A program made the position numbers and the translations under genes. Of a stretch of 64,000 bases of DNA, positions 11,046 to 25,699 are shown piece by piece. Below the pieces are notes generated by a model. It searched no databases. It saw only the letters and a program-made list of their open reading frames with translations, and was not told the DNA's origin. Position 1 is the first letter of the stretch. Each line of letters opens with the position of its first letter. The stretch comes from Clostridiales bacterium (GTDB lineage: Bacteria; Bacillota; Clostridia; Lachnospirales; WQUN01): NCBI GenBank assembly GCA_031263155.1, contig JAISGK010000081.1:1-64000 (forward strand), written 5' to 3'.

Positions 11046-11963
11046 TTATCCTAGCGTGTCATTTAGCCCAACCAGTTGTTCGGGTAAAATGTCATCAGTG
11101 TAAAAGCCTGACACGCCTTTGGCAAGCCATGCTTTAATGTCGTTTATATCATTTAGCGTGTGCAAAAACACTTTTGCCCCAGCGGCGTAGATGTCGCTTA
11201 AAAAGGGTTGGTTGGCTCGTTCGGGCGGCATAACGATCACAGGTATGTTTTCGCTTCGCACAAATTCTACAACCTGCGCTTCCGTGTCAGGAGTCATATA
11301 AAGGGTATATAGAATGTTGGGATATTTATATATCTTATTGATAAGATGATACATTTTTTGGTTGTACACTTGCACAATGATGCGCTCTCTAAGTTCGGGC
11401 CTAACGCTTGCGGCGTCAAACAGTATCTGAAATTGCTCGGTTATTTGTTCGTCGGTATAGTCAAATGACTTGGTGTCAGTAATGATATAAGCGTCTTCAT
11501 GCTGTTCTAAAAAGTCAAGAAACATCTCTAGCGAAGTTGGTGTAAACAACCCGCTTACCTGCTTTGACGAAAACTCATCCCAGCTTTTGGCCGCCTTACC
11601 GCCCCAATCATGTATGCCTACAAGCTTGCCGTCACTGGTAAGGTTAAAATCCAACTCAAACACGCGATGCCCAAGTTCATAATTCGTTTGCACAGCCTCG
11701 ATAGTGTTGGTACCCTGCACATTGCCAACCGTACCTCCCGCGTGAGCGACAAGACCAATATCAACCCAGCTGGACACAGGCGTGCTCGTGCCAGGCATAA
11801 CTAGCACATTGTTTGATATGGCAGGCACGGCAAACTCCAAGTCGGCTTGAGTGGTAGGCGTTGTCGATAGCCCGACCGCTTGCGGGTTTGACTGAGCGTA
11901 AACAAAAAAGGCGGCAACGGAAAGAACGCAAAATATAGATAGCAGCATTACTGATATCCTCAT
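11046..11963 (-). CDS. Exported glycerophosphodiester phosphodiesterase-like protein
   Basis: A signal peptide or anchor (residues 1-25) leads into a PI-PLC/GDPD-like barrel. Key motifs are VAHAGG with the first catalytic His, NTIEA, VFELDFNLTSDG holding the metal-binding Glu/Asp pair, and GIHDW with the second His. The C-terminal VSGFYTDDILPE also fits the family. Such enzymes hydrolyse glycerophosphodiesters or related lipid or teichoic-acid products outside the cell. I choose ATG 11963 because GGGGGTG lies just upstream. The longer frame from 11978 has no ribosome binding site. The 116-bp gap on its upstream side (11979-12095) holds no gene and no convincing terminator for the Hsp70 train. 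Confidence 0.85.
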   Translation of the reverse strand: MRISVMLLSIFCVLSVAAFFVYAQSNPQAVGLSTTPTTQADLEFAVPAISNNVLVMPGTSTPVSSWVDIGLVAHAGGTVGNVQGTNTIEAVQTNYELGHRVFELDFNLTSDGKLVGIHDWGGKAAKSWDEFSSKQVSGLFTPTSLEMFLDFLEQHEDAYIITDTKSFDYTDEQITEQFQILFDAASVRPELRERIIVQVYNQKMYHLINKIYKYPNILYTLYMTPDTEAQVVEFVRSENIPVIVMPPERANQPFLSDIYAAGAKVFLHTLNDINDIKAWLAKGVSGFYTDDILPEQLVGLNDTLG

Positions 11964-12095
11964 ATGCCACACCCCCATTGCTTTATTATATCTTAAACGC
12001 TCGACAAAGTAAATAGCCTGTCACATCGTGGAATGTGGATATAAACTATTGGTACGCGCTATATAACCCCAGCGCCACAGTAGCGTTACTCGTTG

Positions 12096-13247
12096 TTATA
12101 CAACTATCGTTTCGTCCGGGGATTCGCGGTAATCGCTCTTTAGCGATGCAATCAAAGTTTGCAGTTCTTTCAGGTAATCACGTGAGCGACTCATGGCGTG
12201 GCGGGCTTTTATCAACAACAACCTCGCCGATAGGTTTGCCGGTTCTATACTTAAGGCGCGGTTTGCCGATTCAAAAGCCTGATTGTAGGCGTTTGCCCTA
12301 AGATCTACCTCTGCAAGTTTTTGCCACAGCGCCGCGTTGCCCGCGTTATTTCGCAGAGCGCTCTCTATTAATTGCGCGGCCTCTTGCTGTTTGCCTTGGG
12401 CGCACAAAATATCGGCCCGGCGTTCGTCCGCCGCTGCAAGTGAGTTAACGCGCTCCAGCGCGCTTTCCGCTTTATCATATATGGCTCGCCTTATATAAAA
12501 GTCTACCAATTTAAGGCTTGTCGCCTCTGTGTTATCTTTTGCCGCTTCTTTATAGTAAAATTCGGCCTGATCGTATTTCTCCTGCGATTCAAACAAGGAC
12601 GCGCGCACCAATGAAGCCTTGGAGGTTGAGCGCGCGTTACCCAACAGGTTGCTTGCCGTTTCAAAGTCGCCGCAATGGACACAAGCCTCGGCAAAGTGCA
12701 CCGTTATATCCCCATTCATTTTATCCAATTCGCGCGCTTCGGCTAGCAAATCCTTCGCGTGGACAAAGTCGCCCAAATTCATCAACGCGACAGCGGTGTT
12801 GTTTAACAACACCGCTGATCTCTCTTCGTTGAGGGCCTGCCTATAAAATCCCAAGGCCCTTGAGGGCGATTTCTTTATCATGAAATAGTCGCCGCGCTCT
12901 TTAAGGCGCTCCCAATTCTCCCTTTTCTCCCACGCTATTATATCTGCCATAACAAGGTCTATTTCTTCTGACGTCAGGACCCCCGCATCACGCAAAAACG
13001 ATGTTACAGCACTGGACACACTTGCCAAGGCGTGTTCCCTCAACCTTTTCGCCACGTCAAACATCCTGAGCGCGTCCCCTGTCCACGCCGCAAAGTGCTT
13101 ACCTTTTATGTCGTCAAATGTTTCGCGCCAGTTTTGCCACACGTGAAACGACGCCTCTTCTATGGAAAACACCCGCGCCCCTGTCGCGTGAAATTCGTAT
13201 GGTTTGTCACAGCCATCGGCATTTACACACAAAATTAGATTTGTCAC
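12096..13247 (-). CDS. TPR protein, last gene of Hsp70 cluster
   Basis: The 383-aa product begins with a short module (CVNADGC, then ATGARVFSIEEASFHVWQNW) that recalls an N-terminal segment I have seen in clostridial TPR proteins (a SIEE motif followed by aromatic residues). After a helical spacer, residues from about 125 to 370 form tandem tetratricopeptide-like repeats (ALGFYRQALNEE, NNTAVALMNLGDF, AEFYYKEAAKD, LWQKLAEVDLRANAYNQAFESANRAL). TPRs are protein-binding scaffolds; in eukaryotes they dock Hsp70 tails. The GTG start overlaps the TGA of the Hsp70-VWA gene by four bases (GTGA), so the two are translated together. No signal peptide: cytosolic. Specific function unknown. Confidence 0.75.
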   Translation of the reverse strand: MTNLILCVNADGCDKPYEFHATGARVFSIEEASFHVWQNWRETFDDIKGKHFAAWTGDALRMFDVAKRLREHALASVSSAVTSFLRDAGVLTSEEIDLVMADIIAWEKRENWERLKERGDYFMIKKSPSRALGFYRQALNEERSAVLLNNTAVALMNLGDFVHAKDLLAEARELDKMNGDITVHFAEACVHCGDFETASNLLGNARSTSKASLVRASLFESQEKYDQAEFYYKEAAKDNTEATSLKLVDFYIRRAIYDKAESALERVNSLAAADERRADILCAQGKQQEAAQLIESALRNNAGNAALWQKLAEVDLRANAYNQAFESANRALSIEPANLSARLLLIKARHAMSRSRDYLKELQTLIASLKSDYRESPDETIVV

Positions 13248-15325
13248 AACCTTATCAACTCTGCTATGCTCATGGCGATATTGTCTAGGATATCAAAAAA
13301 TTTGTCGTTAAGGTCATAATACTTGCCAAACGGTTTTGTAATAGGGTCATACGCCTCTATGCTCTCTCGATCCTTGCGCGCGACAACATAAGCGGTCACT
13401 TCGTTTTCATTAAGCATTGCGCAAATGTCATGCACGCGCCGTCCGCTTGCGGTCGGTACATGCGGCGGAGCGTCCGTTATTAAAATAAATATATACCGTG
13501 CTCCAATAGATTCGCCGCGCGAAGTGTTTATCAATTCTATGCCCGTTTCCAGCGCGTCCAGTGACGATTCGGGTATGTCGCCGCCGTACGTGCGCGGGAT
13601 ATTTTTGACCTGCTTTTGGAAGCGACTAACATCGTCGGTGAAATTATAAACGCTGGGGCGTTCCTTTTCATTTAAGTCGCCAAAACCGATAAGCCCCAGC
13701 TTAAACATTGCCCCTTTGCTTGCTAATATTTCACTAAACTCTATAGCCCTGTCTTTTACGCCGTTAATATAGGTATCCATACTACCTGTTGTATCTATGA
13801 GGAAAACGACATTAACAAGCCCTCCGCCCCTACGCGCTTCGCCCGCGTCTGGCTCAGCTTTATATTTCGCGCGATCAAATTCGGCGCGTTCTGTGCGCCC
13901 GCTGCTCATATCCTTTACAAATACCTCAAAAAGGTTATTCTCGTCCAGGGCATATGTGATTCCAATTTGCGTAGTGCCAGATAAGCCAGAAAAGAGCACG
14001 CTGCCAATGTACTTGCGCTCATCCTCCCTGCCTTGCTCCCATTCGAACACAGGCACGGTAACATGCGACGCGCCGCTCATGCTGGCGAAGTTGTCATCCG
14101 TAAAGCGCCCCGGTATGCCGCTGCCCATGGGTATGATGGGTATGAGCTGTTTTTCCATTGTCGCGATATTGGTTATCGCTTCTGTCCCAAAAATCTGGCG
14201 GGTTATCTGACCGACTTTCACATTACTGTTAGGCAGGTGAATGAGCCTGTTGTATATGGCCGCGCCCATGGCAACGCTTTTGGCGGGGTCTGTCGCGCGA
14301 TACGGCTCTTTAATAAATCCCGCTACCATGCGGCGTATCATAGGTATAAGCGTAGAACCCCCCACCAGTATAACCTTGCTTATTTCATCCGCGCCTCGTC
14401 CCGCGCGCTTTAACGCCTCTTCGATAATTTCACGGCTGCGATCAACATATTTGCGTATCATGGCCTCAAATTCTTCGCGCGTTATTTCGGAGGAAAGATT
14501 TTTCGGCACACCCTCATGTATTATCAATGGGTTTATACGCACTTGGGCGCTGTTAGACCCGCTCAGTTTCTTTTTGGTCTGCTCGGCCTCTTGCTTTAAC
14601 TTCTGCATAACGCGGCGTCTTTCCGCGTTGTCCAAAGAGTCCAGATCTATGCCGGAGTTTTGGCTAAATTTAGCCTTCATCCACATTATCAATTCCGAGT
14701 CAAAATCGTCCCCGCCCAGGTTCATGTCGCCCACGTCAGAAAGCTCTTGAAATACTTCCTGACCAATCTCGTCCTTCGAAACGTTAAGCACACACGCGTC
14801 TAGCGTGCCCCCGCCAAAATCGTAAACCAGAAGGGTTTGAGCGTAACCTTGACGGTAACCATATTCTATCGCCGCCGCCAAAGGTTCTGATAACAGATAA
14901 ACCTCTTTAAACCCCGCTTTAAGACCCGCCTCGCGCGTAGCGAATATTTGCCTGTCGTTAAAGTACGCGGGATGTGTTACCACCACCTCGGTAAAAATTT
15001 CACCCGACTGCTCTTCCGCCGCCTGCTTAAGCTTTTTTAATATTTCGGCGCTGATGCTTTCCGGTGTTTTTTCATCTCCGGCAATATTTATTCGCTGTTC
15101 TGTGCCGATCAACCTTTTTACAGATATGACCGTTGTTTCGGGGTAAACGATAGCCCCCGCCTTGGCTTCGCTGCCAACAATTATTCCGTTTTCGGTATAG
15201 CTGACTACAGATGGCAAAATTTCATCAGTGCCGTCTATTCGCACTACGTCAAGAGAGTCGGTCTTGTCGCTGTAGATCATTGCGACGCTGTTGGTAGTGC
15301 CAAGGTCTATGCCCAAATATCCCAT
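13244..15325 (-). CDS. Hsp70-von Willebrand A fusion protein
   Basis: Residues 1 to about 345 are a complete Hsp70 ATPase domain: phosphate-1 GIDLGTTNSV, SEPLAAAIEYG, phosphate-2 VYDFGGGTLD, and adenosine loop VILVGGSTLIP. A beta substrate-binding-like region follows to about 475. The helical lid is missing; a Gly/Arg linker instead leads to a von Willebrand A domain (about 490-693) with MIDAS residues DTTGSM, a GGDIPESSLDA loop and ITDAPPH. The VWA domain should bind a divalent metal and a partner acidic residue. ATG 15325 has AGGGAG upstream. It lies 71 nt after the preceding Hsp70 gene and overlaps the next by 4 nt. I know no characterised protein with this order. Confidence 0.85.
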   Translation of the reverse strand: MGYLGIDLGTTNSVAMIYSDKTDSLDVVRIDGTDEILPSVVSYTENGIIVGSEAKAGAIVYPETTVISVKRLIGTEQRINIAGDEKTPESISAEILKKLKQAAEEQSGEIFTEVVVTHPAYFNDRQIFATREAGLKAGFKEVYLLSEPLAAAIEYGYRQGYAQTLLVYDFGGGTLDACVLNVSKDEIGQEVFQELSDVGDMNLGGDDFDSELIMWMKAKFSQNSGIDLDSLDNAERRRVMQKLKQEAEQTKKKLSGSNSAQVRINPLIIHEGVPKNLSSEITREEFEAMIRKYVDRSREIIEEALKRAGRGADEISKVILVGGSTLIPMIRRMVAGFIKEPYRATDPAKSVAMGAAIYNRLIHLPNSNVKVGQITRQIFGTEAITNIATMEKQLIPIIPMGSGIPGRFTDDNFASMSGASHVTVPVFEWEQGREDERKYIGSVLFSGLSGTTQIGITYALDENNLFEVFVKDMSSGRTERAEFDRAKYKAEPDAGEARRGGGLVNVVFLIDTTGSMDTYINGVKDRAIEFSEILASKGAMFKLGLIGFGDLNEKERPSVYNFTDDVSRFQKQVKNIPRTYGGDIPESSLDALETGIELINTSRGESIGARYIFILITDAPPHVPTASGRRVHDICAMLNENEVTAYVVARKDRESIEAYDPITKPFGKYYDLNDKFFDILDNIAMSIAELIRL

Positions 15326-15396
15326 AACATATCTCCCTGCATTGTATAAAATCGTATGCGCGAATCCCTCTATTAGACTTCGGCGGTGATCATACC

Positions 15397-17040
15397 TTAT
15401 TTGCCAACCCGATTTGATTCTGACCGTCTAACCACCGTTTTTCTGTCGCGCGCAGGCTCGAACGGCTCGCGATAACCCGATGGTGCAAACTCGCCCGCAA
15501 ATCCTAGGTCTTCAACAATGCCGTTGACCATACCGCCGTTTTCCGTCACCTTTAGGGTTATCTTCAACTTTGTTTTTCCACTTGGTCTGGCGGGCAATCC
15601 CGTCATCTCCACTTCTCCTATCAATTTACATTTATCGAATGAATCCGCTTTATCTATGCGCTCTAAAATACGCAGGTTAAATCGGGTCATTTCGTTTGGC
15701 ACACTGCCGTTTAGCGTAAACGCGTAGCTCTTGACCGCCAGGCTGTAAGGCGTGCCCCTGCGTATCATGGGGAAAAAGGATTTGCCTCCTCCAATGACAA
15801 TTTCTAGCCCTATATCGTGCGGGGTGGTCACTTCAAACTGAACCACCTCGGCCGACATATCGGGCTGGTTAAGCAGGCCCATTTTAATGGCCGCGTAATA
15901 CGCCGCGCCAAGGGAAATGTCTTGCGCGCGCTTATCTGTGCTATAGATTTTTGATTCGTCGTCAAACACCGCTACAAGCATGTTCTTAACCCATGGCATA
16001 AAGGACGACCCGCCCTCCAGCAGCACTCGATCTACAGCGTCCGGAGCGACGGCTCCGGTATACGCGTCGCGTAGGGTCTTGCGTACAAGGTTGCGCGTTT
16101 TATCAATAAAGGGTTGAATCATGCCCTCCAGCGTTTCTCTGGTTATCTGCTCCATAAAAGGGGGAATACAAAAGGCGAACGGCACACGATAACTCTTTAA
16201 GCCCGAAAGCCGCTCTTTTGCCTCGCGCGCGTGCATAACCAGCGTCGCCTTGTTTTCTGGGCTTAATTCATCCCTGCTCACACTATTCTTGCGTTCTATA
16301 ATCTGGTAGCACAGGTCGGTGAGCATTTCGTCAACATTGTCCCCGCCGTGGTAGGCCTCGCCACCTTCGCTTATCACTTGCAGCTTAAGCTGGCCATCTT
16401 GTTCCGAAACGCGAAATAAGGTAATATCCAGAGTGCCGCCGCCAAAGTCAAACACCATTATTTTTTGCCCGTTTTTAAGCGGTTGGGTCATATTGTAATT
16501 AAGCGCGGCGGCAAGCGGTTCTTCTATGAGGCAGATGAGTTGATCCTTTATGCCCGCCAGCTCACAAGCGCGTTGAGTAGCCTTTTTCGCAGCGTCGTCA
16601 AAATGATAGGGTACGGATACCACGGCGCCGCCCAATTCCGCTTTGGGATTAATGTTGGCAATATGGTCAAACAACTCGCGCAAAATTCTAGACGATATCT
16701 CTTCGGGCTTATAATCTATGTTATTTATCCTCACCGTTTCCGAGGTTCCCATTTTGCGTTTTATGGAGCGTATGGTAGTTTCGGGGTATATCGCCATAGT
16801 ATTGTACGCTTCTTGACCTATAAGCCATTCGTCGCCATCGGGGCGGTACTGCGCAACAGACGGCAGCGCGATTTTCCCAAATCCATTGCTTATGTCAATT
16901 AATTCCGGGCGGTCGTTGTGTGAGTCCCAATAACTGATGATACTGTTTGTAGTGCCAAGGTCCACTCCTACAATGTAGATATCTTCCGGTAGTTCGCCGC
17001 CTTCGGATATGATGCGATGTTTAGTCTCTTGCCATGTCAT
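15397..17040 (-). CDS. Lid-less Hsp70 family ATPase
   Basis: The 547-aa protein has an intact Hsp70 nucleotide-binding domain after a 25-residue leader: GVDLGTTNSI, IEEPLAAALNY, VFDFGGGTLDI and LLEGGSSFMPW. A beta-sandwich substrate-binding region follows (PHDIGLEI; a Leu/Val-rich stretch to about residue 510). The chain then stops in a basic tail, without the alpha-helical lid or an EEVD-type end. Size resembles HscC-type Hsp70s rather than DnaK (about 610-640 aa). A ribosome site AAGGCGGTG precedes the ATG. It closely parallels the next upstream gene, with which it shares the leader and the layout of the first 60 residues, pointing to tandem duplication. Confidence 0.87.
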   Translation of the reverse strand: MTWQETKHRIISEGGELPEDIYIVGVDLGTTNSIISYWDSHNDRPELIDISNGFGKIALPSVAQYRPDGDEWLIGQEAYNTMAIYPETTIRSIKRKMGTSETVRINNIDYKPEEISSRILRELFDHIANINPKAELGGAVVSVPYHFDDAAKKATQRACELAGIKDQLICLIEEPLAAALNYNMTQPLKNGQKIMVFDFGGGTLDITLFRVSEQDGQLKLQVISEGGEAYHGGDNVDEMLTDLCYQIIERKNSVSRDELSPENKATLVMHAREAKERLSGLKSYRVPFAFCIPPFMEQITRETLEGMIQPFIDKTRNLVRKTLRDAYTGAVAPDAVDRVLLEGGSSFMPWVKNMLVAVFDDESKIYSTDKRAQDISLGAAYYAAIKMGLLNQPDMSAEVVQFEVTTPHDIGLEIVIGGGKSFFPMIRRGTPYSLAVKSYAFTLNGSVPNEMTRFNLRILERIDKADSFDKCKLIGEVEMTGLPARPSGKTKLKITLKVTENGGMVNGIVEDLGFAGEFAPSGYREPFEPARDRKTVVRRSESNRVGK

Positions 17041-17076
17041 TGTGCACCGCCTTAAATTATCTCTTATGCCAAAACG

Positions 17077-18582
17077 TTATATGCCAACCTTAAAGGTTTT
17101 GCTAAAGCCCGATCGCGGATATATCTCACCCAGCCCCAAATCAATTACATTGGCGTTAAGTGTAGAACTGTCAGAGAAACTTAATGAAAGCTCCAAACAC
17201 GTGGCGTATTTGGGCCGAGTGGGTAAGTTGAGCGAGATGTCGGTCAACCTGGCGACGCGCCCGTCGTCGTCGCGTGTAAACAACTCCATAGTCGTATGCG
17301 AGCTGGACTGTTCCGCTAAAATAAATCGTACATGTTTCACCTTTTGCCACCAAAACGCGCCGCGGTATATGATAGGTATAAACCTCTCTGTCGCGCCTGT
17401 TTTGGCGACGACGCCGATGTCGTGTTTAAGCTGATGCTTATCTATAACGTTTATCGTCCACATGCTCGACACGCCCAGCAGCTTTGCCGCTATCTTCGCC
17501 GCGCCTTCCGCCGCGACAGATTTTGGGTTTTTAAAAAAGACAGCCTTATCTTTAAAAAGCGCCGTTATCTCTTCTTTCACCCATTGCATCTCAAAGCCGC
17601 CGCCCACGCAATACACCTGAGGCAGCTCCCCCTTGCCTGCCAATTTGCTCATAAACCCAAGAAAGCGCTCGCGGAACGGAGCGATAAGCCCCTGCATATC
17701 TTTGTGCCCGATGGATATCTGCACCGGGGGGTAAATGAAGTTTGGGTACATCTTCAGTGGTTTTTGCCAGTTGGATTTTTGCAGCAACATGTTTTTGTGC
17801 TGATAAAGGAAGGACTTTAGCCTCGCCGGTTGATAATCCTGCCCACGTAGGCGCTTATCAAAATATCCCGCCAGGGCGATGTCCATTTCCGCCATACCAA
17901 GCGACTCGTCAAATAAATAGGCCTCTGTTTCCGCTTCCAGCGTGTTTTTGTGAGTACGCGACTGTTTTATCGAATAAATGCCCGCGCGTAGTTCCCTGCC
18001 GGCATAGTCCATTATCATGACCTTCATGGCCGGCGCTACGTCTGGCAGTACGCGCGCGAGCACGCAATCCCTATCGTCCGCCAATGTGATGAGCATACCG
18101 GCCTGACCTGCCTGCGCGAACGCCTTTGTTAATTCATCCCTCACCTCCTGAGAGACATACGCGCCCACAGAGCACACAATGCCCGCTATTTCCGCCCGGG
18201 GATTAATATTTCTAACGTGCCTTAACAGCTCTTTGATATATTGCCCCAATAATTTGTTCGCGCTGTAAATTCTGCCGCCCGCGCTGATGTATTCTTTACC
18301 GCCCAGTTTATCCAAAACAGGAACGGTCACTTCACGTCCGTCACCGTTATTAAGCAGCGCGTACTCTCCATAAACCCATTCCGACTCAGGCACATATTGA
18401 ATGACAGAGGGTGAGCTTGAGCGCCCATAACCGCCGCTTAAATCTATAACCTCCGGCTCGTCACGCAGTGTATTATAAAATGCCAGCGATGATGATTCCG
18501 CGCCCACATCGATTCCAATTATGTAGTGCGATTCTGTGGGACGCCTTTTTGTAAATTCTTCTTTATACTGCTTCCAGCTCAT
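17077..18582 (-). CDS. Degenerate (pseudo-ATPase) Hsp70 homologue
   Basis: This about 501-aa protein aligns with its neighbour at 15397-17040 across the leader (SWKQ versus TWQE), the region YGRSSSPSVIQYVPESEW and the glycine loop YCVGGGFEMQW. The nucleotide-hydrolysis motifs are wrecked. Phosphate-1 reads GIDVGAESSS instead of GIDLGTTNS. The EEP(L/T)AAA segment is ADDRDCVLA. Phosphate-2 is MDYAGRELRAG instead of FDFGGGTLD, losing the catalytic Thr and Asp. It should bind nucleotide weakly or not at all and probably serves as a regulatory or structural partner. The frame is open throughout, so it is not a decayed gene. ATG 18582 is chosen by alignment and the upstream GAGG; the frame stays open to 18609. 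Confidence 0.75.
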   Translation of the reverse strand: MSWKQYKEEFTKRRPTESHYIIGIDVGAESSSLAFYNTLRDEPEVIDLSGGYGRSSSPSVIQYVPESEWVYGEYALLNNGDGREVTVPVLDKLGGKEYISAGGRIYSANKLLGQYIKELLRHVRNINPRAEIAGIVCSVGAYVSQEVRDELTKAFAQAGQAGMLITLADDRDCVLARVLPDVAPAMKVMIMDYAGRELRAGIYSIKQSRTHKNTLEAETEAYLFDESLGMAEMDIALAGYFDKRLRGQDYQPARLKSFLYQHKNMLLQKSNWQKPLKMYPNFIYPPVQISIGHKDMQGLIAPFRERFLGFMSKLAGKGELPQVYCVGGGFEMQWVKEEITALFKDKAVFFKNPKSVAAEGAAKIAAKLLGVSSMWTINVIDKHQLKHDIGVVAKTGATERFIPIIYRGAFWWQKVKHVRFILAEQSSSHTTMELFTRDDDGRVARLTDISLNLPTRPKYATCLELSLSFSDSSTLNANVIDLGLGEIYPRSGFSKTFKVGI

Positions 18583-18589
18583 GGCTGCC

Positions 18590-20407
18590 TCATTTCGCGG
18601 CAATGACATTGGCGCGCGTTAATATCTTCTCGCCTTGTCTATAGCCGCTGGTAACGCACTTGATGATCTCACCCTTGGCAAATTCGCCGCTTTTTTCCGC
18701 CATAATAACCTCATGCTCTTTCCCGTTAAACATATCGTGCGGGGCCGGTCTTATCATTTCAATACCGTCGAGCGCCAGAAGTTGTTCCATTTGGGTTGTG
18801 ACTTTGTCTACAAGCTCCACATAATCCTTTACGTTGTCGTCGTCGCTCTCGCGCAAACGTGTCACGCTGTAGCGCAATATCTCTTCAAACGTGCCCACTT
18901 CGTATAGCACACTGTCGCGCACAAAGCGGGTGATCTCCTTTTTCGCCCCTTCAACCCAGCGCTCCGCCATATCGCCAACCCTTTTGGCATAGGCCGCCAT
19001 GGGCTCGCTGTCATGCAAAAGCTCAAATAAACGTTCCCAATTTAACATATTCATGCGCTTGATGATATCAAACGCCACCTGGGCAAATTGCGTTTTTTCG
19101 ATAGTATTGGCTTCTCGCGCAAGGCGCGCCGAAGAAAAATCTTTTGCGCGCGCGCCGAACGTCTCTATAGCCTCGTTCAGGCTTTCGGCCTTTATATACA
19201 GCGTTTCGTTAATTCCATCCATAATGGCCTTCGCGCTGGAACCTATGCTCGAGCGGGAATAGTCTTGCTCCCTATACAGAGAGTTAATACGGCAAAAGTT
19301 TATCGTGATCGATTCCGCCATGTCTATGGTAGCCTTTGCCGCGCATAGAACGCGCCGTGTGGCGTCTATAAAAGGGTCCCGCATTTGCGAGGTACACATA
19401 TTAACTATGGCGCTCGCGCCGCTCTCAACCTCATTTTGCAATCGCTTTAGCATCTCGGCGTAGTTACTGAGCGTTTCGTCATAATCGCGCTTAATAAGCA
19501 ACCGTGTGTTGCTAAGCATTTCGCGACACGCGCCAGCAAACTCTTCTTGCGTTTCTGGTCGATATGGCTCCGTCGTTTGCGTTTCTATGGCCAATATCAG
19601 CTCAACACATTCAGAGTCGTAAAACTCAGCCGCCTCGTGAACAAGATTTAAAATGTCTTGCGTCGTTTCTTTCTCATAAGAGTTTCCCGCCGCTCTGCCA
19701 AGTTCATGCCGCAACCCAATCGCATAGCGGTTTATAATATTTTTTAGCTCGTTTTCGTACTTGAGTTGGGTAAGGTAGTGATTGAGCACCTTACGCCCCG
19801 CGATATTATTTAAGCTGTTAACGCACTCGCTCACCGATTTCGCGTATGTCTCGTAATGCTTTTCGACCAGTAGCTCAAGAATATTTTCCAATAGTTTGTC
19901 AAAAAACGCATCAAAATAACCTTCGCGACATTCCGCCAGGTTGGGGTCATTGTATTTAGAATGGCGAAACATGCGCTCGGTATCGGCAAAACTGAAGATA
20001 AAGTAACTCACGCACGCACTCTGCAAGGCTATACGCTCGGACACAACTTGGTTATCCGATCTGTGCGCCGCAAAAAGCTGCACACGTATCAAAAAGGTGT
20101 CATACAGCTCACGCAGTATGTTACGAACGCTGACAGTAGATATATCGCCTTTACGCTTATCCAATATTTCAACGGCGCGCAAATAATAGTCTATAAGCCT
20201 GCCATACGCGCCTACGAGCTTTTCGTCATAACCACTAAGGCGGGCATTTCTGCCCGCCATACCTATCACGCGGTCCATAACGCCGTATTTCACACGCAGC
20301 AGCATCGCGTCCACGGTGCGCCGCGTAAGTCCGTTAATGCAGCTGGTACATTCCTGCCACGCGCCGGCGATGTTATCTAAAGCGTTTGTATTAATCATAC
20401 AGCGCAT
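18590..20407 (-). CDS. 605-aa helical protein with C-terminal GrpE-like domain
   Basis: The first 500 residues are mainly alpha-helical with no family I recognise. The last 85 match the GrpE pattern: a helix TTQMEQLLAL, then GIEMIRPAPHDMFNGKEHEVIM, then the beta-wing KCVTSGYRQGEKILTRANVIAA, equivalent to the FDPxxHEAV and GYxxxxRVLRPAxVxV signatures of the DnaK exchange factor. Position inside an Hsp70 cluster agrees with a nucleotide-exchange role. Standard GrpE is about 180-220 aa, so this is a large fusion. It overlaps the upstream Hsp70 stop by 17 nt. ATG 20407 has no clear ribosome site; ATG 20398 is an alternative. Confidence 0.7.
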   Translation of the reverse strand: MRCMINTNALDNIAGAWQECTSCINGLTRRTVDAMLLRVKYGVMDRVIGMAGRNARLSGYDEKLVGAYGRLIDYYLRAVEILDKRKGDISTVSVRNILRELYDTFLIRVQLFAAHRSDNQVVSERIALQSACVSYFIFSFADTERMFRHSKYNDPNLAECREGYFDAFFDKLLENILELLVEKHYETYAKSVSECVNSLNNIAGRKVLNHYLTQLKYENELKNIINRYAIGLRHELGRAAGNSYEKETTQDILNLVHEAAEFYDSECVELILAIETQTTEPYRPETQEEFAGACREMLSNTRLLIKRDYDETLSNYAEMLKRLQNEVESGASAIVNMCTSQMRDPFIDATRRVLCAAKATIDMAESITINFCRINSLYREQDYSRSSIGSSAKAIMDGINETLYIKAESLNEAIETFGARAKDFSSARLAREANTIEKTQFAQVAFDIIKRMNMLNWERLFELLHDSEPMAAYAKRVGDMAERWVEGAKKEITRFVRDSVLYEVGTFEEILRYSVTRLRESDDDNVKDYVELVDKVTTQMEQLLALDGIEMIRPAPHDMFNGKEHEVIMAEKSGEFAKGEIIKCVTSGYRQGEKILTRANVIAAK

Positions 20408-22070
20408 CGACGCCCAATTCTGTAACCACTCCGTCTACCGACATGCTCTTCGCGGTTACCTTAAGCATATTGTCCTGCCCCACATTAAAAATAATCTTAA
20501 CCTTTTCCTTGCCTCTTGGACCTTGTGGAATACCGCGCAACGACGTGCCAGCCAGCCTTTTCATACCGTCCTTGCCCACGCTGGGGTTGGCCGCTCCATC
20601 TGGAGAGGTGTTTTCGTAAACCACAATGGCCATACTGCTCACATTATCGTAGTTGGTGGTTAGAAGCTCACTTGCCTCTACCGTAAGCCCTGAAGGGGGT
20701 ATGTCTTTGCCTGCGCCCACGATCTCCATAAATCTACGCCCGGCTATCTCCAACCCCAGAGGGTGTATGGTCTTTTCATGTACAACAGGGCCTTTCACGG
20801 TAGGCATCATGATCATATTGCAATAGTAGGCCGCGCCTTGTGATATGCTCAACGCGGGGCTTATTTTGGATTTAAAGGGTTCTTTGCCGAATTTTGCTGT
20901 AATCTTTTCACTCACCAAAGGCAGGGAACTGCTGCCGCCCACAAGGAATATCTCGTCTATGTCCGCTACGCTCAACTTCGCGGCTTGAAGGGACATGTCA
21001 ACCGCGCGAATCGTTTCGTCTATCAAGTCTACAAGGTTTTTGTCTCTAAAGTTTTCGTACACCTCTTGCGTATCACCCAGCGAGTTGTTTCTGCGATACA
21101 AAGTGAAATCCTCACGGCTTATCTCCATGTTTATATTGACTATACGCGGTTCTTGAATGAACGGCGCGAGGGTTATCTTGGTGGTTTTGGATTGCGAAAG
21201 ACGCTCTTTCGCCGCTGTGGCGGCCTGCGACAAGCGGGCCAGCGCGGTCTTTTTTTGACGCTTGCTAACGCCGTCATCAGCGTTGTCGTCGTATAGATCG
21301 ACCTCATTATTCGTCAGCTTCTTAAACTCTTCGTATATCATATCGACAATGATATTATCCACATCGTTGCCGCCCAGGTTGTTGTTGCCAAACGTACTGA
21401 GAATGGATATTGACGGTTCCCCCGAGTTGGCTTGTATCCGCAAAATGCACGCGTCGAACGTGCCGCCGCCAAAGTCATATACCAGCACCTTTTTGTCAGC
21501 CGTTTCGTTTACGGCGTAGCTGATGGCCGCCGCTGCGGGTTCCAACCGTAAAAATATGCTGTCTTCATCAAAACCCGCCAGCACGGCCGCGTCCTTTGTC
21601 AATTTCTTTTGCTTGTCATTACTGTTGGCGGGCACGGTGATAACACAACCGCTAAATTCTCCAGAAATGCCCAGCTCTTCCTTTGCGTATTCATCCGCTT
21701 TTTGTTTAAGGTAACCCAAAATTTCTCCAGCTATTTGCTCTGGCGCAAAACTGAATTCTTTTTCATCCACCACAATATTGATCTTCTCATCTATCCCGAG
21801 ATAGCGCTTGATAGATAGAACCGTCGATTGAGGGTATATAATCGCCGCGTCCTTTGCAAGCGATCCGAATACACGCGCCAGCTTAGTGTCGTCCTCCGGG
21901 TCCGTTTCAAATTGAATGGCCGTGGGGAAGATGTTGGCCCCGTCGATGGGGATAGTCAGCGCTTCGCCTTCCCTAAAATCGAAAATACTAATCACCGAAT
22001 TGGTCGTTCCAAAGTCTATGCCCAAAAATAATCCGCGTTCCATGTCTAGCCCAAGTGTGCCCAAATTCAT
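20391..22070 (-). CDS. Lid-less Hsp70 family ATPase
   Basis: A 559-aa Hsp70 with intact catalytic motifs: GIDFGTTNSV near residue 17, LEPAAAAISYA, VYDFGGGTFDA and FLVGGSSSLPL. The substrate-binding beta domain (HPLGLEIAGRRFMEI; IVVYENTSPDG) follows and the chain ends at ELGVDALYD without the lid. Here the EPT(A)AA motif keeps its glutamate, so ATP hydrolysis is expected. AAGGAGG lies immediately before the ATG with unusually short spacing (about 2 nt). The gene sits 28 nt after the 893-aa repeat protein and overlaps the GrpE-like gene by 17 nt, so equal production of chaperone and exchange factor is likely. Confidence 0.87.
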   Translation of the reverse strand: MNLGTLGLDMERGLFLGIDFGTTNSVISIFDFREGEALTIPIDGANIFPTAIQFETDPEDDTKLARVFGSLAKDAAIIYPQSTVLSIKRYLGIDEKINIVVDEKEFSFAPEQIAGEILGYLKQKADEYAKEELGISGEFSGCVITVPANSNDKQKKLTKDAAVLAGFDEDSIFLRLEPAAAAISYAVNETADKKVLVYDFGGGTFDACILRIQANSGEPSISILSTFGNNNLGGNDVDNIIVDMIYEEFKKLTNNEVDLYDDNADDGVSKRQKKTALARLSQAATAAKERLSQSKTTKITLAPFIQEPRIVNINMEISREDFTLYRRNNSLGDTQEVYENFRDKNLVDLIDETIRAVDMSLQAAKLSVADIDEIFLVGGSSSLPLVSEKITAKFGKEPFKSKISPALSISQGAAYYCNMIMMPTVKGPVVHEKTIHPLGLEIAGRRFMEIVGAGKDIPPSGLTVEASELLTTNYDNVSSMAIVVYENTSPDGAANPSVGKDGMKRLAGTSLRGIPQGPRGKEKVKIIFNVGQDNMLKVTAKSMSVDGVVTELGVDALYD

Positions 22071-22098
22071 TTCCTCCTTGTGGTTTCTCTCTGGATAA

Positions 22099-24780
22099 TT
22101 ACAAAATGCTTGCGTTGATTGAGGGTCTGCTCTTAAGATACTGTGTCAGTTCTTCTTCCGCTTTGTCGTATTGAAACATTTGCTCGTATATAACCGCGTT
22201 GTTTATCACGCAATAGGGATCGCTCTGATCGGGGTTGGCAAACATGGCCATGCTTTTTATCTCCGCCTCGTGTGTGGTCACACTGCCGGCCGCCGTTTCA
22301 TTGCTGTAATAATAGCGTATAGTCTCGTTATAAAAAACAGGGATGTGGAGAAGATACAAGCCGAACCGCCAATATTTCATGCGACGTTTATGCCAAGACG
22401 GTTCATTATCTATTTTGTATAGCAAAAAGATATTTTTGTCAGGCAAGCCTTTATATAAGAACGGCTGATTCTTCTCAATATACGGCAATGATGACAACTT
22501 GTCTTTATTCTCTTTTATTACGGGAAACAATATATCCTCGGCGCGCATACAACGCACCGCGTCGTCAATAATGCCGGCGCGCCGCGCGGTCACAATCCCG
22601 TGCGATAGATACGCGTGAGACAGGGCATAGGCAAGCTGCGGCTCATTATTTTCCATGTAGATTTTTTCCAGGTGTGGGATCGTCTCATACATGGGTTTGA
22701 AATTGTTTACAATTATCTCATATATACAGAAGTATGTAAACTTCCGCGTAGATTCATGATCGCAGGCGCCACGTATAAATACGCCTTGCGCCCCATCACT
22801 CATTTCTCGTATAAATACCGCGTTTTTGAGTATAAGCGAATCCAAATCTTTATCTATAATGGAGATGGACGCCAGCACCCGGCTAAGTTCCTGCCATTCT
22901 TTTTGCAAGCCTTTATAGTGCTTAACCACGACCCGAAGCAATGTCTTGTCGTACCAGGCCTTGGCCAGCAATCTGAAAGCGGGTTCGGCAATGGCAAAGT
23001 GGTACGCGCTATGGCGGCATAGTTGCTTTAGCGCCGCAAACAGCGTTTTATCGCTTACGCTTTCGTGCCGGGCGGCAAGCAATCGCGCGGCTTGATCCCA
23101 ATTGCGCGCGGCGATAAACGCGCCCAATATCTCTTCTATATAGATATCCGGTAACAGGCTGTCGTCCGCCTCGATAAAGTATCGCATGGCTTCGTTGGGG
23201 TCGCCCGATTCGTATAACATTCTCCCCAGCGCAACGCGAATCTGGTTTGCGAACATGTGCGAAACCTCTCGCATGTTAAGGGTTTGGGACAACACTTCAA
23301 TCGCCCACGACGGAGGCGTCTTGGCGTTCATGGCATGCCGCGAGAGCGCGCACATAAGCGGAAACCGCCGCGATCCCTTGTTATAAAAATACTCATACAG
23401 CCTAACATCGCTAAAGTTTACCAGCCGAGTAACCTTCAACACGCTATCCAGCGCTTGGCGCTCGTCGGCTGTCAGGGCGTATCGGGCGAAATAGGCGTCA
23501 TGCGCTTCTATCAGCACACTGCCGTTGGTGAGTTTGTACACAGACATGCCCGTTCTTTCCTTCTCGAATATATAGATGGATTTCGCGCTGTTGTCTGTTG
23601 TGCGTATACGAAATGAGAATAACACAGAACCGAGCAGATCCTGCGCCTTATCCATATGTGAGTCGGGCAGCGTCCACTCCGAACCCATCACGATGTAATG
23701 CGCGTACAGTGTGTAAAAATGTCTGCCCTTGTGTGCGCGCTCCAGGCAATGTGAGGTAAACTGCAACAATTCGTCGCGCTTTATATTAAGCAAGGGCGCC
23801 AGTTTTTTTTCGATCAGGACGAGATGGTAGGCAAACGCGACTACTTCATCCTCGTCATCCGGGTCGTCCAGATACTGTTGCAAGGCGTGGGCGCTGACCG
23901 TTTCTATGTGAGAGCGCAACGCGGATTTCAGTATAAAATGATACAAATCGGGCAGCTCCAGCCGCATGACATCCGCCTGTGAGTAATACCCATAAGCGGC
24001 GGCCGAGTAATTCATGTCGGACATAAGGTTTTGGCATATTTGCCGCAGATAATTCTGAGGATACCGCTTGGCAAGGCGTTCCCGCCACAATGGCAAGCGA
24101 TAAAAATCGGGCGGTAGGTTCACTCCAAGGCGGTCTATGCATTTGCGCATGTCCGCGCCATGCACAAGCCCCCAGCGAATAAATGACGCGTTAAGTTCCG
24201 CGTCGCGGTGGAAGTCGCCTCCCTCGTTTGCGGAAAAGTTGATTAGCAGCCAAACATATAAAAACGTGGAGCAATTGCCATATTTAAACGCCTTAAGAAG
24301 ACATTGATAAGACGTTTCATATTCTCCGAGTTCGTACTCTAAAATCCCTTCACAAAGCAGATCGTCCCGTGGGTTGGCATGCGTTGCGTTATATTCTTTA
24401 AACTGGTTTATATAACGACGCGCCCGCTTAAGCTTGCCTTTTCGCGCTTCCAAAAGCGCGGACAAAAAAACAAATTGCTTATAGATCCGCGTATTGGCGC
24501 CTCGGTAGTAATTGCGCCCTTCAGAAAGCGTGTCAATACTTTCCGACGCCATGTCTTCATTACCCATTTCGATGGAAATAAAGGCCGTAGCGCAAAGCAA
24601 TCGCGGGTTTTGACCCAGGCGCGCCCGCGCGGTTTTTATGGTATAAAACGACCGCTGAAACGCCATTTCAGCGTTATCAGGGTTAAGTTTACCATTAAGC
24701 CAATATGCCATGGCGATGAACAGCGCGCGCCGCGTCGATGGAGTTTTGTCAAATTGTTGTTCCAAATCGGCTAAAGTCAT
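22099..24780 (-). CDS. Large helical repeat protein, first gene of Hsp70 cluster
   Basis: This 893-aa protein is almost wholly helical with TPR-like periodicity (ALFIAMAYWLNGKL, KLKRARRYINQF, AAYGYYSQADVM, EAMRYFIEADDS, and at the end MFQYDKAEEELTQYLKSRP). A central segment near residues 410-460 is more beta-rich. It resembles, from memory, a clostridial family of unknown function that neighbours Hsp70 genes (DUF5717-type); a profile search would settle this. No signal peptide or membrane segment. GGGGTGA precedes ATG 24780; the GTG at 24789 would be the alternative. Only 28 nt separate it from pyrF upstream, so it probably shares the pyr transcript. Likely a scaffold or client adaptor, by inference. 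Confidence 0.7.
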   Translation of the reverse strand: MTLADLEQQFDKTPSTRRALFIAMAYWLNGKLNPDNAEMAFQRSFYTIKTARARLGQNPRLLCATAFISIEMGNEDMASESIDTLSEGRNYYRGANTRIYKQFVFLSALLEARKGKLKRARRYINQFKEYNATHANPRDDLLCEGILEYELGEYETSYQCLLKAFKYGNCSTFLYVWLLINFSANEGGDFHRDAELNASFIRWGLVHGADMRKCIDRLGVNLPPDFYRLPLWRERLAKRYPQNYLRQICQNLMSDMNYSAAAYGYYSQADVMRLELPDLYHFILKSALRSHIETVSAHALQQYLDDPDDEDEVVAFAYHLVLIEKKLAPLLNIKRDELLQFTSHCLERAHKGRHFYTLYAHYIVMGSEWTLPDSHMDKAQDLLGSVLFSFRIRTTDNSAKSIYIFEKERTGMSVYKLTNGSVLIEAHDAYFARYALTADERQALDSVLKVTRLVNFSDVRLYEYFYNKGSRRFPLMCALSRHAMNAKTPPSWAIEVLSQTLNMREVSHMFANQIRVALGRMLYESGDPNEAMRYFIEADDSLLPDIYIEEILGAFIAARNWDQAARLLAARHESVSDKTLFAALKQLCRHSAYHFAIAEPAFRLLAKAWYDKTLLRVVVKHYKGLQKEWQELSRVLASISIIDKDLDSLILKNAVFIREMSDGAQGVFIRGACDHESTRKFTYFCIYEIIVNNFKPMYETIPHLEKIYMENNEPQLAYALSHAYLSHGIVTARRAGIIDDAVRCMRAEDILFPVIKENKDKLSSLPYIEKNQPFLYKGLPDKNIFLLYKIDNEPSWHKRRMKYWRFGLYLLHIPVFYNETIRYYYSNETAAGSVTTHEAEIKSMAMFANPDQSDPYCVINNAVIYEQMFQYDKAEEELTQYLKSRPSINASIL

Positions 24781-24808
24781 GCCATTCACCCCAAATAGAT
24801 TAAGAAGA

Positions 24809-25699
24809 TCAAATTTTAATATCCTTCAAATCGCGCCGCATGTCAAGCGCCGCCAGACGTGCCGCTTTGGCGAAGTCGTCAGGGGAGCGTAAATACCTGT
24901 CATTTTTGTAGGCGAATATAATCCCGCGAGACGAATTGACCATACTGCCGCTTACGATATCTTCCGCTTTAGCGCCCTGCGCGCCATAGCCCGGGGCGAG
25001 AAAGAGCGTTTGCGGCATAAGCTCGCGCAGCCGCTTTGTCTGCGCCGGATGTGTCGCGCCGACAACCGCGCCGACACTGCTGTATCCCTGCGCGCCAATA
25101 AATTCCTTGCCCCAGCCGTTCACAAGCTCCGCCACGCGTTCGTAAAGGGGCCTGCCATCTGCCATATGTATATCCTGCAATTGCCCTGAGCCGGGGTTAG
25201 AGGTTTTTACCAGCACAAACACGCCTGTGCCGCGTTGTTTACACACATCCAAAAACGGTCGAATAGAGTCTTCGCCAAGGTAGGGGTTTATGGTAGCGAA
25301 ATCTTCATTAAACACAGTGAACGACTCGCCGAAAGCGTTTACCTCGCCTATATGCGCTTGCGCGTACGCCTCGGCGGTCGAAGCTATATCGCCACGTTTG
25401 ATATCGCCAATAACGATAAGGCCTCTTTCTTTTGCGTAGCGCGCGGTACGTTCAAACACCTCGATACCGCGAGAACCGTACAGCTCATACATGGCGATTT
25501 GCGGCTTAACGGCGGGCACAATGTCTGCCACTGCGTCTATTATGGCTTTGTTGAATTCATATATCGCGCGCGGGACATCTTTTTTGCCGCCGAAAACACA
25601 TTCGGGCAGCAGTTCGACGCGTGGGTCCAACCCCACGACTGTTGGGTTTTTAAGGTGACGCGCGCGATACACCAATTCATCGATCCTTAACTCCGCCAT
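24809..25699 (-). CDS. pyrF: Orotidine 5'-phosphate decarboxylase (type 2)
   Basis: PyrF catalyses the last step of UMP synthesis. The 296-aa protein belongs to the longer, type 2 family: TVVGLDPR at the N-terminus, FNKAIIDAV, KPQIAMYELYG and the catalytic GDIKRGDIASTA (Lys and Asp network). GGAGAGATAAA precedes the ATG, which overlaps the end of pyrC by 13 nt. It follows pyrC and precedes the Hsp70 cluster in one minus-strand run. No PyrR-type attenuator is visible upstream of the pyr genes in this window. Other pyr genes are elsewhere. Confidence 0.95.
   Translation of the reverse strand: MAELRIDELVYRARHLKNPTVVGLDPRVELLPECVFGGKKDVPRAIYEFNKAIIDAVADIVPAVKPQIAMYELYGSRGIEVFERTARYAKERGLIVIGDIKRGDIASTAEAYAQAHIGEVNAFGESFTVFNEDFATINPYLGEDSIRPFLDVCKQRGTGVFVLVKTSNPGSGQLQDIHMADGRPLYERVAELVNGWGKEFIGAQGYSSVGAVVGATHPAQTKRLRELMPQTLFLAPGYGAQGAKAEDIVSGSMVNSSRGIIFAYKNDRYLRSPDDFAKAARLAALDMRRDLKDIKI

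Follow-up and report, generated by a model that had tools for sequence, protein, structure and literature searches.

Hsp70 systems are usually described as a DnaK, a J-protein and an exchange factor. What kind of machinery, then, is encoded by a locus that lines up four Hsp70-type genes with a GrpE-like gene and two genes for repeat proteins? We address this question for a 64,000-nucleotide (nt) stretch of a Clostridiales bacterium genome (assembly GCA_031263155.1, contig JAISGK010000081.1; hereafter the window), in which seven same-strand open reading frames (ORFs), g1 to g7 in order of transcription, run on the minus strand from 24789 to 12096. They encode a large helical repeat protein (g1), an Hsp70 (g2), a protein with a GrpE-like C-terminus (g3), a degenerate Hsp70 (g4), a further Hsp70 (g5), an Hsp70-VWA fusion (g6) and a TPR protein (g7). 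Pfam searches of all seven proteins agreed with every domain call of the first-pass annotation, upholding the Hsp70, GrpE, TPR and VWA assignments, and the interpretation which that annotation offered is partly supported by the analysis below. The reading towards which we lean is that of a dedicated second Hsp70 machine, apart from DnaK-DnaJ-GrpE and tethered at the inner face of the cell membrane.

Relation to the DnaK system and conservation of the set

The same genome contains a complete canonical hrcA-grpE-dnaK-dnaJ operon on a separate contig (G000:C26, L136:1129-6160), and the only J-domain detected in the genome lies at this locus, so the seven-gene set is a second system. None of the seven proteins gave a Pfam match to a J-domain. 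In DnaK, residues R167, N170 and T173 and the interdomain linker have roles in its work with DnaJ. The genome's own DnaK carries RIINEPTAAA and VLLLDVTPLSLG, with these residues and a VLLLD-type linker present, whereas the equivalents of R167, N170 and T173 are replaced in g2, g4, g5 and g6 and the linker is not conserved in any of the four. The absence of a J-protein, already noticed at first pass, is thus strengthened by the loss of the docking residues from every Hsp70 of the set.

To survey co-occurrence, we ran profile searches with g2, g3, g5 and g6 over 196 genomes of the window's order, leaving out g7 because TPR profiles are promiscuous; the sampled genomes were mostly metagenome-assembled genomes (MAGs), and their families are labelled f1 (the window's own), f2 and so on. 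Markers for g6 and g3 were each present in 69 genomes, for g2 in 68 and for g5 in 66, with all four in 63 genomes and any of them in 71; g2 and g3 had 68 genomes in common and a single exception, and several of the exceptions in the survey were incomplete genomes. Pairwise Fisher tests among the four gave p-values of 1e-41 to 1e-52, which ignore phylogeny. More telling is that genomes whose operon has broken up still retain the genes together. Indeed, in most f1 genomes g1 lies apart from the rest and the genes are scattered over contigs, and dispersed sets keep sub-operons, namely M-N-g1 (M and N are described below), g2-g3-g4, g5-g6 or g2-g3-g4-g5-g6.

The complete seven were found in 34 loci from nine families (f1, f5, f82, f84, f91, f93, f96, f97 and f98), or about 29 distinct genomes once records fetched twice are removed. 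Order and strand were identical in all 34, with median gaps of 18, 19.5, 9, 30, 3 and 12.5 nt, which argues that the cluster is not due to chance. That independent chaperone and TPR genes merely came to lie side by side would fit the scattering in most f1 genomes, but the scattered genes still co-occur, and the constancy of the complete loci already contradicts such an explanation, which we regard as scarcely credible. Judged by adjacency, the expectation that the seven would usually be neighbours partly fails within f1, since in the stretches read only 4 of the 22 f1 genomes have all seven adjacent, although many others carry them in sub-operons. In some clusters, unrelated genes are inserted between members with the order kept (L113:7721-8392, L104, L121), one example being a metallo-hydrolase-like gene that separates g2 from g3.

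A survey of 291 genomes of the class detected DUF5717, the Pfam family of g1, in 10, every one from the window's order; among 196 genomes of that order it was present in 93, including all 22 of f1, where g1 occurs once in each sampled genome. Those relatives of g6 that bear a name are MAGs, with the labels Defluviitaleaceae, Vallitaleaceae, Eubacteriaceae, Clostridiales, Clostridia and Firmicutes, which makes Lachnospirales the probable order. In trees of g6 and g2 the branches mostly match the families, f1 forming two groups in both and f93 two in that of g2, a pattern that argues for vertical descent with losses. The set is kept together by one order of anaerobic bacteria over long evolution, and co-occurrence, conserved order and the separate dnaK locus support the proposal that its genes form one functional set apart from the DnaK system.

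Composition of the set

In a motif alignment, g2, g5 and g6 retain the phosphate-1, K70, E171, phosphate-2 and adenosine motifs, which g4 and all of its orthologs shown have lost, so that the proposed division into catalytic and pseudo-catalytic Hsp70s agrees with the sequences, three members being predicted ATPases and one a pseudo-Hsp70. The Pfam HSP70 model, which has 599 positions, is matched only as far as ~477-499 in g2, g5 and g6; therefore these proteins lack the helical lid, as had been observed, and they keep the beta part of the substrate-binding domain (SBD-beta). Distant matches of 25-31% identity (L061-L072) reached no more than ~45 bits with the cluster models; they are short Hsp70/actin-fold proteins, perhaps MreB, and were not counted.

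The g4 protein scored 88.6 for DUF5716_C against a curated cut-off of 34.7 and still matches DnaK structures over the nucleotide-binding domain (NBD) and SBD-beta (1.3e-28). In hhalign it aligns with the g5 family at a probability of 100, with 25% identity over 500 columns and an N-terminal extension in common; judged from its sequence, it is a degenerate paralog of g5. Two f96 genomes have a g4 match with one in-frame TAG (G401:C1:962772-964214 and G321:C212:10232-11647), and in these the protein is possibly shortened.

In g6, the VWA domain begins at the place expected for the lid. The residues of its metal ion-dependent adhesion site (MIDAS; DxTxS...D), D511, T513, S515 and D618, are invariant in 14 of 14 orthologs aligned, and this motif has been reported as binding extended peptides (PMC7159879). 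The Hsp70-VWA fusion was found in none of 397 other genomes sampled phylum-wide, the window's own genome being the sole match.

The GrpE match of g3 reached 52.3 bits against a Pfam cut-off of 25.8. Its AlphaFold2 model (mean predicted local distance difference test score, pLDDT, 87) consists of an N-terminal bundle of long helices spanning ~460 residues, followed by a GrpE-like long helix, a short helix and a beta-wing. The top 11 Foldseek matches in the PDB are all GrpE (probability 1.00), while the N-terminal ~460 residues had no confident PDB match in the same search. On the model, the C-terminus is a true GrpE fold, in line with the first reading of this 605-residue protein, and an exchange-factor role is predicted. 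The g1 protein covers the C-terminal two thirds of DUF5717_N plus DUF5717, with scores of 74.3 and 92.5 against a cut-off of 25. It is modelled (mean pLDDT 85) as an alpha-solenoid into which two beta domains are inserted, at residues 392-455 and 774-845, and for which Foldseek returned TPR scaffolds such as Ctr9, Ski3 and IFT-A subunits. Together with the TPR matches, this supports the predicted fold of the repeat proteins as TPR scaffolds. The predicted template modelling scores (pTM) of the g1 and g3 models are ~0.55 each, which leaves their domain arrangement uncertain.

The set is not limited to seven, as was first thought, since N and M (or D) also belong to it. In many loci the gene immediately before g1 is N, of ~390 codons, whose product corresponds to the first third of DUF5717_N. 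Fusions of N to g1 occur in f2, L107 and L110, and in shortened form in f96; they provide a Rosetta-stone link between the two. A search for PDB relatives of N found none, and its sequence pattern suggests a beta-sandwich protein. M lies upstream of N in seven families and encodes ~410 residues, with a membrane segment at the N-terminus, a further hydrophobic stretch (one or two spans in most members) and a coiled-coil tail. Both are absent from the window because in this genome they adjoin each other on another contig (C50; L137:5752-8256); a rearrangement may have split the set. D is a different membrane coiled-coil protein, encoded directly after g7 in f2, f82, f84 and f96 (L128-L132), families without M, and the two never occur in the same locus. 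An hhalign probability of 3.5% led us to reject a common family for M and D. We also rejected M as a channel of the MotA/TolQ/ExbB type, which has a similar order of membrane segments (one, a pair, then a helical tail), since Pfam and PDB profiles gave coiled coils only. Two unrelated membrane anchors in one role would suggest that membrane attachment matters.

A reduced form of the set occurs in f2, probably Lachnospiraceae, and consists of the N-g1 fusion and g4 together with a g7 cut down to its N-terminal half, D usually being present as well; profile searches found g2, g3, g5 and g6 in none of the 21 f2 genomes. Scaffold and pseudo-Hsp70 are therefore the common core, and the ATPases and exchange factor are not part of what is invariant. 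This core, which is purely scaffold-like, brings up an explanation in which the set is not a chaperone but a nucleotide-switched structural apparatus: actin-like ATPase folds would act as assembly switches that build or position a membrane-associated scaffold, and SBD-beta would bind fixed partners instead of unfolded clients. The absence of the lid, the DnaK linker and the J-docking residues makes a classical client cycle doubtful and points the same way. However, nearly every genome with the catalytic Hsp70s also keeps a GrpE-type factor, in agreement with repeated nucleotide cycling, and SBD-beta is retained in all three of them, so we consider a purely structural apparatus unlikely.

Gene boundaries and surroundings

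The coordinates of the seven genes are given in the table below. The cluster had been taken to start at 24780, which we correct to the GTG of g1 at 24789. By longest ORFs, the gaps from g1 to g7 are +28, -17, -20, +36, +71 and -4 nt, against the earlier range of -17 to 71. Two stop/start overlaps had also been claimed, of which the 4-nt GTGA at g6/g7 is the sole true one. Translation of g4 probably starts from an internal ATG at 18582, the position used by most orthologs, in which case its gap to g3 becomes +7; a TGAGGC motif precedes this ATG. The ribosome-binding site of g2 is clear (AAGGAGGAA).

Coordinates and assignments of the genes of the cluster and of the candidate promoter in the window
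Feature	Coordinates	Strand	Description
g1	22099..24789	-	896-aa TPR-like alpha-solenoid (predicted); DUF5717_N + DUF5717 (PF18984 6.8e-21, PF18983 3.6e-26)
g2	20391..22070	-	lidless Hsp70, ATPase motifs intact; PF00012 1.2e-72
g3	18590..20407	-	605-aa exchange-factor-like protein; PF01025 6.8e-14, residues 503-604
g4	17077..18609	-	pseudo-Hsp70, DUF5716_C (PF18980 4.5e-25), weak HSP70 match
g5	15397..17040	-	lidless Hsp70, ATPase motifs intact; PF00012 2.3e-59
g6	13244..15325	-	Hsp70 (NBD + SBD-beta) + VWA; PF00012 2.1e-88, VWA_4 5.7e-10 at 506-622
g7	12096..13247	-	TPR protein, conserved non-TPR N-terminal region; TPR matches
candidate sigma-70-type promoter TTGACA-17-GATATT	24818..24846	-	consensus match only, 10/12 positions

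Promoter-like matches exceeded those in shuffled sequence, and the candidate 29 nt ahead of g1, within the end of pyrF, is the one strong and well-placed match. In the window g1 follows pyrC-pyrF; the N/M pair on C50 sits near pyrimidine and purine biosynthesis genes. Downstream, 117 nt past g7 and on the same strand, lies a gene for a secreted glycerophosphodiester-phosphodiesterase-like protein (11046-11978), and the gene in this position varies among the relatives tabulated. A divergent aminotransferase-like gene (CobD/HisC-like) recurs upstream of the set, ahead of g1 or N and in the opposite orientation, in 17 loci from 7 families (L103, L107, L108, L122, L125). Apart from this gene and D, no neighbour recurs close to the set.

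Known relatives and a proposed mechanism

With the DnaK-DnaJ-GrpE system of the E. coli type, the set shares an Hsp70 NBD with intact ATPase motifs (g2, g5, g6), SBD-beta and a GrpE-fold factor. It differs in having three predicted catalytic Hsp70s and a pseudo-Hsp70, without lid, DnaK linker, J-docking residues or J-protein, in the ~460-residue helical N-terminus of its GrpE protein, and in its added TPR, VWA and membrane parts. Hsp110/Grp170 likewise place a divergent Hsp70 beside active ones, but Hsp110-type proteins still bind ATP, whereas g4 is without ATP-binding motifs and lid, and a GrpE-type factor is already present here. A VWA domain with a MIDAS coupled to a chaperone ATPase is known from MoxR-VWA chaperones and from TerY/CoCoNuT systems (PMC7159879, PMC11090510), and in CoCoNuTs Hsp70-like and VWA proteins occur along with McrB GTPases and nucleases (PMC11090510). 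Here, in contrast, the VWA domain is fused to the Hsp70 itself and there is no AAA+ partner, McrB GTPase or nuclease; no Pfam match to a MoxR-type AAA+ ATPase was found in the proteins of the set that were scanned.

The nearest published design is that of the GAP1-N2 GTPase systems, which combine GrpE with two Hsp70s and with FNIII proteins that bear a fused J-domain or TPR (Kaur et al. 2020, PMC7159879). Common to both are an Hsp70, GrpE, a second Hsp70-like protein and TPR or beta-sandwich parts, membrane-linked components and occurrence in Firmicutes; our set has a pseudo-Hsp70 and an Hsp70-VWA fusion but no J-domain fusion or effector, and it lacks the TRAFAC GTPase and GAP1 by which those systems are defined. 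Pfam gave no match to a TRAFAC GTPase or GAP1 in g1-g7, N, M or D, and no GAP1 search of whole genomes was made. The similar parts list raises the question of whether the set might be a biological-conflict system, for anti-phage defence or self-sensing. PADLOC also returned weak PDC-M61B matches to g2, g5 and g6, which we ascribe to Hsp70 homology and do not take as identifying a defence system. The components scanned have no match to a GTPase, GAP1, nuclease or toxin effector, their order is constant, and both the single g1 in every sampled f1 genome and the family-following trees run counter to a role in conflict, which we regard as quite improbable.

In the membrane-tethered Hsp70 machine that we favour, M or D would be the anchor, N, the g1 solenoid and g7 would form the scaffold, and g4 may be a fixed structural or regulatory subunit. 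The lidless ATPases g2, g5 and g6 would run their cycle on a client or partner kept close to the membrane, which the VWA domain of g6, in the place of the lid, could contact through its metal site. The trigger for hydrolysis would come from the scaffold or the client instead of a J-protein, and g3 would reset the nucleotide through its GrpE domain. The purpose may be the assembly or remodelling of an envelope-associated client, an envelope-associated complex being the most natural guess. Several observations weigh against this proposal. The reduced group has no catalytic member in its set, so the scaffold can do without an ATPase cycle. In f5 and f98 we recognised neither M nor D. Furthermore, Pfam and PDB searches matched M to generic coiled coils only, and its role is therefore deduced from its topology and from where its gene lies. 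Complex formation, like the membrane topology, the nucleotide cycle and the assembly or remodelling of a client, is inferred, and for the complex this, too, counts against the proposal.

It is possible, and we suggest it tentatively, that M or D, N and g1-g7, about nine subunits, make up a membrane-tethered, J-independent Hsp70 machine whose pseudo-Hsp70 and TPR/beta-sandwich scaffold would replace the J-protein as trigger and organiser of three lidless ATPases, and that this class has not been described before. The set can be viewed as a new variant of Hsp70 machinery, whereas its status as a new class depends on biochemistry. A literature search limited to open-access papers found none that describes the set; in full-text searches of the same literature DUF5717 drew no paper and DUF5716 a single irrelevant one, and searches for Hsp70-VWA, J-independent or pseudo-Hsp70 systems gave only the comparative-genomics analogues of PMC7159879 and PMC11090510. 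In Pfam, DUF5716 and DUF5717 are named only as unknown; g4 and g1 match them above the curated cut-offs, and both families gain a testable context from the set. If our reading is true, a vertically inherited Hsp70 set that lacks the J interface and the lid but retains a membrane anchor, an inactive paralog and a GrpE of its own would represent another way to trigger and localise Hsp70 ATPases.

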